Assembly (NCBI GenBank): GCA_902801985.1
Contig: CADCKD010000003.1
Location: forward strand, 62,001-126,000
DNA length: 64,000 nucleotides
Direction: 5' to 3'
From: an uncultured bacterium
Lineage (GTDB): Bacteria; Cyanobacteriota; Vampirovibrionia; Gastranaerophilales; Gastranaerophilaceae
Shown: positions 48,125-51,637 of the stretch, piece after piece
Layout of the letters: each line of letters opens with the position of its first letter
Numbering within the stretch: position 1 is the first letter of the stretch
Notes under the pieces: generated by a model
What the model was told of the DNA's origin: nothing
What the model saw: only the letters and a program-made list of their open reading frames with translations
The model's database searches: none
Program-made: the position numbers and the translations under genes

Positions 48125-49231
48125 TTAGAATATCTCGATTTCGTTTTCGTCGATAGGCTTTATGACCTTTTTGTCCGCTTCTTTTGCACATATCCCAAGG
48201 TTTTCGCTTAAAATGTCTTTAATATAGTCAGTAACTTCTCTTTTACCTAGCGGTTGTCCATCTTTTGTAAGTACGACGTCTGTTTCATCTTTGTGCTTTT
48301 CAAAAAATTGAGCAAATCCTGAATCTGCAAATTCTGAATTCGGTATTGAGCCTGAAGTTGTTGTTGTAATGTCTTTATCTCTTTTGAAAATTATAGGTTT
48401 GCCGATGTGCATTCCTGTCAGCTTTTTATTCTCGCCTTTTCCGTATGCAAAGCCCACCGGAACAACAGTAACTTCTTTTTTTACTCCAAGTATTTTATTT
48501 ATAATTTCTGCTACTCCGCCTTGGAAACGCTGAAAAAGCTCTAAGTCTTTTCTTACGGCAAGTCTTCCTTCAGGAAATATAAAAATATTGCATTTGTCAG
48601 AGATAAAATCTCGCATCAAAGGAAACATCGCTCTTGCATTGGTTTTTATATCGCGTGAAGATATATTCGCGTCAACGCCGACGGCTCCAACTGCTTCAAA
48701 CGCTTTTCTTTTTATAGGATCCATTGTGGTTAAGATGTCTTGGTTTAGTATAATTTTTGGTACAGGAAAGCTTTCACCCCTGCCTGCATCTTGGTATGCT
48801 TGTGTCAGTATAGTATTCAATACCGCAAGCATTTGCGGGTCTTCACTTTGGTTTGAGTGATTCATAATGAATATTGTTGATTTGCCGTTTTGAGCAATTT
48901 GTTCAAGTATTTTGTCTTCTATATTAACATCAATAATCTTGTTGCTTGCATATATTCTGCTGACGCCTTCAAGTTGGGAGAGATATTTCGGTGAAGATTC
49001 AGGTGTGATTTCGGATATTGTTTTGGTTAATTCTTTTACTTTTTTACTTTGAAATAAATTGCCAATCTTATTTGCAATAATTCTCAGAGCATACTCGCCC
49101 TTTTGCATTGATTTTTCTGCTCTTACACCTGTAAAAGCCATTTGTGCGGGAGCTTGATTTAATGCAGCTTTTGAAGCATTTATATTTCTATATTGATATT
49201 GGTATTGATAATTTACTGGGGTAATGTTCAT
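48125..49231 (-). CDS. PlsC-like acyltransferase-domain protein
   Basis: 368 residues. The central part resembles glycerolipid acyltransferases: TIFIMNHSNQSEDPQML where NHxSxxD is expected, and IFIFPEGRLAVRKD (block III FPEGxR). The catalytic His-x4-Asp spacing reads His-x4-Glu followed by Asp, so the active site is altered or shifted by one. The N-terminal 40 residues (Tyr/Gln/Asn-rich, ending AQMAFTGVRAEKS) are an extension not found in PlsC. It is soluble-looking, without membrane helices. Confidence 0.6.
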   Translation of the reverse strand: MNITPVNYQYQYQYRNINASKAALNQAPAQMAFTGVRAEKSMQKGEYALRIIANKIGNLFQSKKVKELTKTISEITPESSPKYLSQLEGVSRIYASNKIIDVNIEDKILEQIAQNGKSTIFIMNHSNQSEDPQMLAVLNTILTQAYQDAGRGESFPVPKIILNQDILTTMDPIKRKAFEAVGAVGVDANISSRDIKTNARAMFPLMRDFISDKCNIFIFPEGRLAVRKDLELFQRFQGGVAEIINKILGVKKEVTVVPVGFAYGKGENKKLTGMHIGKPIIFKRDKDITTTTSGSIPNSEFADSGFAQFFEKHKDETDVVLTKDGQPLGKREVTDYIKDILSENLGICAKEADKKVIKPIDENEIEIF

Positions 49232-49418: not shown

Positions 49419-49979
49419 TTATGACGGGATATTTTTTTCTATTTTAATTATATTTTCCGCGGTCTCTTTTATAGTTGCACTACCTGCAGTTTGTGATAAT
49501 AATCCGGAGCCTGCATAGAATGTTGAAGCAAAACTTTCATTAAAACCATTTGGCTCAGGCATTTGATTTGTCATAAATTGTGAATGTGCCATCATCTGTG
49601 GGTCACTTCCCAGTAAATGTTCATTAATCGATTCCGGGGTGCTAACTCCTTCCATTATTTCAGGTACGGATTTTGAACAAACGCTATTGGGGTTATGCAC
49701 AGATTTCCCGTACAATGCTGCTCCCGTGGAATAATCTAAACCGGAGCCTGTAGTTGAAAGGCTCGAACCGCCACCAGTAAGCATTGATGAATTTGATATT
49801 TCCGTGCTATTTAGTTCTTCACTTTTAACTTTTTTTAAATCTGGTGCAGAAGTGCTTGTTTTTGAGGTCATTTTAGAAATGTCACTAGTATCTTTTAACA
49901 ATTTTTCAAATCCGTTTTTTCTTATTTTTAATCGTGCTTGAAAATTTACGTGATTTGTTGGACCTATTTTTGTAATCAT
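49419..49979 (-). CDS. Modular paralogue A (N plus C modules), unknown function
   Basis: 186 residues. Shares the N-module (MITKIGPTNHVNFQARLKIR, then LLKDTSDISK) with the two genes upstream, and the C-module (TGAALYGKSVHNPNSVCSKS, VSTPES..., ENIIKIEKNIPS) with paralogue B. It lacks the middle module found in B and C. Rich in Ser, Thr, Asn and Gly and probably largely disordered; no signal peptide. An AAAAAGGAG ribosome site is present. The 3' end is nearly identical in DNA to that of paralogue B. Confidence 0.65.
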   Translation of the reverse strand: MITKIGPTNHVNFQARLKIRKNGFEKLLKDTSDISKMTSKTSTSAPDLKKVKSEELNSTEISNSSMLTGGGSSLSTTGSGLDYSTGAALYGKSVHNPNSVCSKSVPEIMEGVSTPESINEHLLGSDPQMMAHSQFMTNQMPEPNGFNESFASTFYAGSGLLSQTAGSATIKETAENIIKIEKNIPS

Positions 49980-50026
49980 TTTAAACTCCTTTTTCTCTAA
50001 TATTCTAATATTATTTTTTTATTTAA

Positions 50027-50713
50027 TTATGACGGGATATTTTTTTCTATGTCTTTTAGTTCAACAATATTCTCGAAATTATTTTTGAGTACAGTGGAGC
50101 CGGCCCAATTTGATAGTGAGCCATAGGTTGCGTGGTATCCGGATAAAGATTCTATCTTGGTACTATTACTTTGCCCCTGCTGATATTCAAGGCCTTTTAC
50201 GGAATATTCTTGTGTAAAGTTCTCTATATTCCCCATTACCTCAGCTGATTTAGGGGTACTGATTGCTGCCAGTCCGTCGTGTATTGATCCTGCATATATA
50301 CTATGCGGGTTGTGTGCTGATTGTTCAAGAGCTGTTGCAGCTGTCGATGAATATAAGCCTACTCCTGAACTGATTGAGGATGAACCAATAGCGCTTTCTC
50401 TGAGGTCTTCTCCCATATTATTCGGCTTTTCGCTTTCAACTGTTTTTAAGTCTCTTGTAGAAATGTTATTAGCTTCTCTTTTGATTGCGTCAGCATTTGA
50501 ACGCATTGATGCTGATAACGCGTTCCCTTCACTTGCAATATCTGCAGGAAATGCTGTGGATTCAGCTATTCCGCTAGATGCTGAAGTGCTTGTTCTGGAG
50601 CCAATTTTTGAAATGTCTACACTATCTTTTAAAAGATTTGTTACTCCGCTTTTTCTGATTTTGATAAGTGCTTGAAAGTTTACTTGATTTGCCGGTCCGA
50701 TTTTTGAAATCAT
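50027..50713 (-). CDS. Modular paralogue B (N plus M plus C modules), unknown function
   Basis: 228 residues. N-module MISKIGPANQVNFQALIKIR; M-module from about 47 (SASSGIAESTAFPADIAS to NNISTRDLKTVES); C-module from about 115 (GLYSSTAATALEQSAHNPHS to IVELKDIEKNIPS). It is the only one of the three with all modules. Low-complexity Ser/Ala/Asn content. AAAAGGAG precedes the ATG. No membrane segment or known domain. Confidence 0.65.
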   Translation of the reverse strand: MISKIGPANQVNFQALIKIRKSGVTNLLKDSVDISKIGSRTSTSASSGIAESTAFPADIASEGNALSASMRSNADAIKREANNISTRDLKTVESEKPNNMGEDLRESAIGSSSISSGVGLYSSTAATALEQSAHNPHSIYAGSIHDGLAAISTPKSAEVMGNIENFTQEYSVKGLEYQQGQSNSTKIESLSGYHATYGSLSNWAGSTVLKNNFENIVELKDIEKNIPS

Positions 50714-50760
50714 ATAGTACTCCTTTTCTTTTTATTCCTCTTTATAATAAATTCAAAATT

Positions 50761-51096
50761 TTATGATGGAATGTCTTTTGTCTTTTTTGATTTTGCTGCT
50801 GAATTTTGGCTTGCAGTGCTTATTATTGTTCTTAAATCTCTTGTGGATATTGCATCAGATTCTTTATTTATTATATCCGCATTGTAGCGAATGGCAGAGA
50901 AATTGTGGTTATAACTGGATATATCAGTAGGGAATGAAGTTACTTCTGCTGTCCCGCTAGAAGCAGAGCCAACTGTTCGCGCTCCGATTTTTGCACTGCC
51001 TTTTACGTCTTCGATAATGTTTTTAAATCCCTCTTTTTGGATTTTAATGCGTGCTTGGAAGTTTATTTGATTAATAACTCCTATCTTAGAAATCAT
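50761..51096 (-). CDS. Modular paralogue C (N plus M modules), unknown function
   Basis: 111 residues. N-module MISKIGVINQINFQARIKIQ and M-module (SASSGTAEVTSFPTDISS to DAISTRDLRTI), then a short ending TKDIPS that echoes the KNIPS end of A and B. The C-module is absent. AAAAAGGGG precedes the ATG. First gene of the trio on the minus strand. Confidence 0.6.
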   Translation of the reverse strand: MISKIGVINQINFQARIKIQKEGFKNIIEDVKGSAKIGARTVGSASSGTAEVTSFPTDISSYNHNFSAIRYNADIINKESDAISTRDLRTIISTASQNSAAKSKKTKDIPS

Positions 51097-51178: not shown

Positions 51179-51637
51179 TCAATGGCAACCTCTGCATGAT
51201 GTGCAGCCATTATGTGAGCATTGATTTTTAAATAAATCTTGGAAATCAAAAACTCTATCCTCTAATATTGCTTCAATAACCGGAGGTACAAGTCGCTTTT
51301 TTACCTCCAGAATGTCTTTTTTAAATTCGTCTATATGAGTGTCAATCCCAATAAGAACCGGATATTGCGCGATGATTTTATTGTTTGAATGTATTGTGAT
51401 TCCGCTGACTTTAACCCCCGCTAAAAATGCTTTTTCTTCTGCATTTTCTTCATTAAACGAAGGTAATAGGGAAGGATGAATGTTGATAGATTTTTCGGGA
51501 AGGTCACCTGTATGATTATTATAAACAGCTAAATCGTAATCTTCCGTATTTTCGACTATTTCAACATTTTTGTCCGCAAAATAATTTTGGATTGTTCCAG
51601 AAATATCAGAATTTATTAATAATATTTTTTTCTTCAT
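51179..51637 (-). CDS. Half-size PurN-like formyltransferase with a cysteine-rich tail
   Basis: 152 residues. The region INIHPSLLPSF, FLAGVKVSGITIHS and IGIDTHIDEF carries the Asn, His and Asp of the GAR transformylase catalytic triad, and VKKRLVPPVIEAILEDR follows the family's C-terminal helix. The N-terminal Rossmann half is cut to about 50 residues (PurN has about 85 before this point). The end CSHNGCTSCRGCH adds five cysteines and two histidines, a likely metal site not found in PurN. No Shine-Dalgarno; TAAAAT ends 6 bases before the ATG. It may be a repurposed formyltransferase fold. Confidence 0.6.
   Translation of the reverse strand: MKKKILLINSDISGTIQNYFADKNVEIVENTEDYDLAVYNNHTGDLPEKSINIHPSLLPSFNEENAEEKAFLAGVKVSGITIHSNNKIIAQYPVLIGIDTHIDEFKKDILEVKKRLVPPVIEAILEDRVFDFQDLFKNQCSHNGCTSCRGCH

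Follow-up and report, generated by a model that had tools for sequence, protein, structure and literature searches.

Genes A, B and C, three tandem open reading frames in a window of 64,000 nucleotides (the whole stretch of DNA that was analysed) from a gut-type relative of the cyanobacteria, are judged by their sequences to be members of an unnamed, lineage-restricted family of small proteins. In this family it is both ends, rather than modules, that are conserved, with the middle swapped or lost, and the small proteins are linked to an acyltransferase gene by gene order. We favour, at a probability of roughly 45%, a reading in which A, B and C are soluble accessory proteins (adaptors or scaffolds) of the adjacent acyltransferase, with two ends that would serve for docking and a dispensable linker. 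If this is true, the acyltransferase offers a functional handle on orphan genes of gut bacteria for which we know of no genetics, and the findings point to a short N-terminal peptide that is common across the proteome.

All three ORFs are encoded on the minus strand; C comes first, then B, A and the acyltransferase-like gene, with intergenic gaps of 47 nt (C to B), 47 nt (B to A) and 187 nt (A to the acyltransferase gene):

48125..49231, minus strand: acyltransferase-like gene (PF01553, Pfam E 6.9e-6), downstream of A, with MAFTG in the N-terminus of its product
49419..49979, minus strand: gene A, 186 aa, N-module plus C-module (ORF, homology to B)
49419..49442, minus strand: last 24 nt of A, the same as those of B (50027-50050) (repeat D5)
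49419..49844, minus strand: C-module of A, ending KNIPS (z 14.2 versus B)
49845..49979, minus strand: N-module of A, with NFQARLKI (repeat family D1, alignment A2)
50027..50713, minus strand: gene B, 228 aa, N, M and C (full-length relatives in G002, G015, G025 and G035)
50027..50422, minus strand: C-module of B, ending KNIPS (z 14.2 versus A)
50423..50578, minus strand: M-module of B (z 20.1 versus C)
50579..50713, minus strand: N-module of B, with NFQALIKI (repeat, alignment A2, shuffle test)
50761..51096, minus strand: gene C, 111 aa, N, M and the C-terminal tip KDIPS (ORF, alignment)
50761..50778, minus strand: tip KDIPS of gene C and stop (alignment; tail pattern rare elsewhere)
50806..50961, minus strand: M-module of C (z 20.1 versus B)
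50962..51096, minus strand: N-module of C, with NFQARIKI (repeat, alignment A2, shuffle test)
51179..51637, minus strand: formyltransferase-like gene (PF00551, Pfam E 2.1e-10), upstream of C

The earlier note had described the three genes as tandem paralogues sharing modules N, M and C, and the similarity is indeed far above composition. When each pair was compared with 1000 same-composition shuffles, z reached 30.5 (N, A/B), 21.0 (N, B/C), 20.1 (M, B/C) and 14.2 (C, A/B), with none of the 1000 shuffles attaining any of these scores; the negative control, M versus C of B, gave z -0.5. Purely compositional similarity of the modules is thereby ruled out. Alignment agrees with the shuffles that B consists of N, M and C and that A consists of N and C, as had been proposed: B and C share 54% identity over aa 1-101 (E 7.6e-24), and B matches A at 69% over 45 aa (E 7.7e-12) and at 36% in the C part (E 9.7e-11). 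Gene C had been taken as N plus M. Both modules are present, but its product ends in KTKDIPS, and because it retains the final residues KDIPS it is an internally shortened copy, not plain N+M. The tip match of gene C alone is weak, with 28 of 1000 shuffles reaching the same score. An AAGGAG- or AAGGGG-type ribosome site precedes each ATG, in keeping with the strong site ascribed to every copy.

The proteins were also said to have no known domain, and searches of Pfam (matches below cut-offs only), NCBIfam (none), PHROGs (one weak match to B, 0.0088) and PDB sequences (none) returned no named family for A, B and C. Within the open-access literature, no paper apparently describes the findings on this family. 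Structure prediction for gene B gave no usable fold (mean pLDDT 40.3 from 8 sequences). A hydropathy scan detected no Sec signal peptide or transmembrane stretch; among 22 proteins none has a transmembrane-like segment, the highest 19-residue hydropathy being 1.54. The coding sequences of the family are under purifying selection, with dN/dS of 0.11-0.30 in four between-genome orthologue pairs. A phage origin was rejected, as there is no relative among viral contigs and the PHROGs match is weak only. A nucleotide-level or ribosome-site cause of the N-terminal peptide was likewise set aside, because silent sites vary where the residues are constant.

Members of the family follow a common plan, with F-x-A-R/K-I-K-I at the N-terminus, a middle rich in Gly, Ala, Ser and Thr, and K-x-P-S/T/D as the C-terminal tail. 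A profile of A, B and C together finds matches in 5 of 46 genus genomes, that of the window included, and syntenic copies number two in G002, one in G015, three in G025 and one in G035. The locus varies among relatives, from 1 to 3 copies, which is the comparison that the earlier note had called for. At E <= 0.001, the N-terminus profile (A2) matches 17 of 191 genomes of the bacterial family and 20 of 291 of the phylum; these matches include further members plus other proteins, and the phylum matches all fall in the same family, among the matches listed. Reading out the members reveals at least 4 subtypes with common ends, one of which (A10) is found in 11 of the 191 family genomes and 9 of the 291 phylum genomes. 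With the ends removed, hhalign finds marginal similarity between subtypes I and II in the remaining middle (E 6.6e-4, probability 27%), and the comparisons of I with III (E 0.037) and II with III (E 0.44) are not convincing.

The tail pattern is rare elsewhere, ending 1 of 802 other sampled ORFs. Exceptions within the family are DVLS in G035, KTPN in G154 and two members with an extra residue (DPSK), and the tail is absent from the 82-aa copy in G025 and from three upstream genes in G072 in which the N-peptide is present. Towards the other end, K18 and K21 are invariant across the 8 proteins of alignment A5.

The acyltransferase gene was found in 18 of the 46 genus genomes (E <= 1e-30). Gene order was examined in 17 of these, comprising the upstream DNA of 16 genomes plus the window, with G045 left out. 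In 14 of the 17, one to three family genes lie directly upstream of the enzyme gene; G016 and G024 have no upstream member, and in G021 the gene is at a contig end. A wider sample of 191 genomes of the bacterial family yielded 15 with the acyltransferase at E <= 1e-60, and 12 of these, from 8 genera, carry one or more small N-peptide genes directly upstream (the genome of the window, G022, G038, G071, G072, G084, G094, G113, G121, G154, G158 and G162). The exceptions are G098 and G124, without an upstream member, and again G021. Four genomes (that of the window, G021, G022 and G038) enter both counts. Of the 191 genomes, 12 match A3 or A10, and every one of these belongs to the 15 with the enzyme (p 1e-16, ignoring genome relatedness). 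Since the relatives adjoin the same enzyme gene in other genera, and further surroundings of the linked loci differ between genomes, the arrangement suggests that the small proteins work with the enzyme.

Other arrangements were also seen. In G072, which belongs to a different genus (L205:995-2232), the three tandem small N-peptide genes that lack the K-x-P-S tail are directly upstream of the acyltransferase gene. In G128 and G149 (L180 and L188), proteins of 75-83 aa, with TTFGNKSQ near the start, a stretch rich in Ala and Gly and a tail rich in Cys, are encoded directly upstream of distant acyltransferase homologues. Where such distant homologues have no small family neighbour, their own N-terminus is often FxARIKL-like (for example L189, L186 and L183).

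The enzyme itself is best treated as acyltransferase-like, given a modest Pfam match, a poor model and an unusual catalytic spacing. Its PF01553 match is 26.3 bits against a cut-off of 23 (32.5 bits in G071 and 27.2 bits in G113), and a distant copy in G145 has no PF01553 match. The best Foldseek match is 1iuq, a plastid-type GPAT (E 7.6e-4, probability 1.00, TM 0.34), and 1k30 is also matched at probability 1.00; plastid glycerol-3-phosphate acyltransferases occupy ranks 1 and 4, and these fold matches rest on a poor four-sequence model with a mean pLDDT of 44.4. Against PDB sequences the best E was about 0.7. The enzyme resembles PF01553 proteins in profile match and, on the poor model, may resemble plastid-type GPAT in fold, but differs from them in two respects. 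PF01553-type enzymes have an H-x4-D catalytic motif, whereas the neighbour has H-x5-D, as NHS[NS]QxxDP (NHSNQ..DP in the window), in 14 of 14 orthologues read. It also bears an N-terminal FxG peptide, kept as [SATH]Fx[GA] in 13 of 14 orthologues read, of 20 loci, within an otherwise unalignable N-terminus.

The adjacency of the genes, together with the invariant K18 and K21, might also be read to mean that the small proteins are acyl acceptors, modified by the enzyme at conserved lysines of their ends. We consider this highly improbable, because the best fold match of the enzyme is a glycerol-3-phosphate acyltransferase and PF01553 enzymes acylate glycerol-phosphate or lysophospholipids.

The formyltransferase-like gene on the other side of the locus is adjacent in part of the genus only. 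Its product has a Cys-rich C-terminal tail (CxxCxxCH-like) that is kept in the relatives seen. In several genus members, a divergently oriented gene beside it encodes a protein of 111-122 aa with the N-peptide NFQAK (L005:232-570, L006:496-864), which is missing from the window.

In the accessory-protein reading, the N-terminal peptide, with its alternating, beta-like and amphipathic stretch, would form one docking site and the C-terminal tail a second, with the Gly/Ala/Ser/Thr-rich middle acting as a flexible spacer. The partner might be the acyltransferase itself or a membrane or lipid location at which the enzyme acts, and tandem copies with different spacers may tune the assembly. This reading draws on the kept ends with unlike middles, the separate origin of short copies with both ends in the genome of the window and in G071, the linkage to the enzyme, purifying selection and the lack of a transmembrane-like segment. 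It is weakened by members that lie away from the enzyme, namely those next to a dCMP deaminase gene (in the genome of the window, G021 and G022), a further one next to a Clp ATPase gene in the genome of the window, and those that follow a formyltransferase-like gene in G021 and G024 where the enzyme is not alongside. It is also weakened by enzyme genes without a member in G016, G098 and G124, by the missing tail in G072, the 82-aa G025 copy and G035, and by the 187-nt gap before the enzyme gene.

Silent divergence between A and B is 0.40 (pS) in the N-module against 0.72 outside the N-module and the last 8 codons (Fisher p 0.004), and it is zero across those 8 codons. This pattern indicates that A and B probably exchanged ends by recombination and that the duplications are old. 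No corresponding silent-site difference between the N-module and the rest was found for B and C (Fisher p 1.0), and recombination, which the earlier note had offered as one origin of the copies, is therefore upheld for A and B and not for B and C. The nearly identical DNA that had been noticed at the 3' ends of A and B amounts to the 24 identical nucleotides, the remainder outside the N-module having diverged heavily at silent sites. 'Recent' is apt for the A/B N-module and the 24-nt end, but not for the A/B middles, gene C or the duplications as a whole.

Duplication with module loss, the other origin put forward, is supported by separate short copies in two genomes. The nearest relative of the N+M part of gene C is gene B of the same genome (53%), and a short G071 copy, built like C, is nearest to the long copy of G071 (40%). 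Because each short copy is nearest the long copy of its own genome, the short form (N, M and tip) arose at least 2 times, in two genera. Such mutual nearness of copies, with A/B ends that look homogenised, would also be expected of an ordinary fast-evolving orphan family in which tandem duplication and internal deletions occur and the ends are kept by descent or gene conversion only. We regard that account as very improbable, since shared ends recur with unlike middles across genera and dN/dS is low.

A broader role for the N-terminal peptide must also be weighed. A looser motif, [VIPTSL][SNTAH]FxG within residues 4-60, is carried by 33 of 805 ORFs from the genome of the window and its bacterial family, compared to 12.1 expected from the internal rate (Poisson p 5e-7) and 13.1 from shuffles (Poisson p 3e-6). 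There is no enrichment in outgroups (4 of 320 ORFs versus 2.8 expected, p 0.31). By source, the observed and expected numbers of carriers, the latter from the internal rate, are 15 and 5.9 for the genome of the window plus the window (411 ORFs in 447 kb), 18 and 6.2 for 20 stretches from the family (394 ORFs), 1 and 1.4 for five outgroup stretches at class level (72 ORFs), and 3 and 1.4 for 15 other stretches from the phylum (248 ORFs). The stretches were picked by contig and coordinate and not by content; the window was added because of the finding on A, B and C. The form present in A, B and C, with [GA] in the last position, shows about two-fold enrichment (26 versus 12.3; 26 versus 9.8), and the extended FxARIKI is far rarer, with 8 matches at E <= 10 in the genome of the window. 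From an enrichment of 2.5-3 fold, or two-fold for [GA], a proteome-wide N-terminal signal is likely, though of modest size, and chance accounts for many of the single matches.

Among the carriers of the looser motif are an AAA+-like protein (L019, recognised by eye), a protein with HTH repeats (L029) and an ADP-ribosylglycohydrolase (L122). A 240-aa protein bearing FxG has a marginal PF03505 match (L032:18466-19188; E 1.3e-5, 25.4 bits, cut-off 25). In three others (L027:12232-13092, L106:7508-8515 and L109:18631-19314) the FxG peptide precedes, by eye, a lipobox or signal-like hydrophobic stretch, a position in which the peptide would either face the cytoplasm or be removed.

The N-peptide could accordingly serve this bacterial family generally, as a docking or targeting signal, with the acyltransferase a co-carrier and the gene linkage a result of shared destination. 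Enrichment that is confined to ORFs of the genome and family, the unrelated carriers and the peptide in 13 of the 14 acyltransferase orthologues would fit, but the enrichment leaves single carriers indistinguishable from chance, one destination agrees poorly with the three lipobox or hydrophobic carriers, and the extended form is much rarer. We hold this explanation to be possible but doubtful. It is similarly unlikely, if worth entertaining, that a family-wide docking or sorting signal of the form hydrophobic-[SNTA]-F-x-[GA], extended to F-x-A-R-I-K-I, sits on dozens of unrelated proteins, among which A, B and C would be the purest carriers with a second signal, K-x-P-S, and a disposable spacer. 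Short cargo peptides at the N- or C-terminus are known from encapsulin and microcompartment cargo, and the likeness to these lies in a short end peptide common to unrelated proteins; it is a likeness only, and no membership is claimed.

The family might alternatively comprise non-Sec export substrates, for example of flagellar type III export, with the N-terminus as the signal. The lack of a Sec-type signal or transmembrane stretch, the conserved N-terminus with a flexible Ser/Asn/Gly-rich body, and the presence of FlhA in the genome, with one member beside fliE/fliF-like genes there, are all compatible with export. F-x-x-x-hydrophobic, near a disordered start, approximates the motif by which subunits of the flagellar rod and hook are recognised at the export gate, and the FQARI-like letters fit it in most members, the pattern being very permissive. 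Export is nonetheless improbable, given that conservation extends to the C-terminal end, that no gene for a chaperone was seen next to the locus, and that most listed family genomes with FlhA have no match to the small-protein family. A fixed flagellar link was rejected, because the fliE neighbourhood differs in G021 and G022.

Flagellins are an example of a tandem family with conserved ends and a variable middle, and A, B and C are similar to such families in their conserved termini, variable middle and varying copy number. In contrast, they show no sequence relation to them in Pfam, NCBIfam, PHROGs or PDB sequences, and their ends measure about 8-20 residues.

A separate observation concerns FlhA. 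A soluble-looking protein of ~492 residues, encoded in the genome of the window (L157:5924-7402) and in G028 (L165:6228-7709), combines a weakly DUF4177-like N-terminus with the C-terminal (cytoplasmic) half of FlhA (PF00771, positions 321-653, E 1.3e-46). A second, short FHIPEP match of similar size accompanies full FlhA in most family genomes listed, and in G028 the best FHIPEP match is of the short type only.
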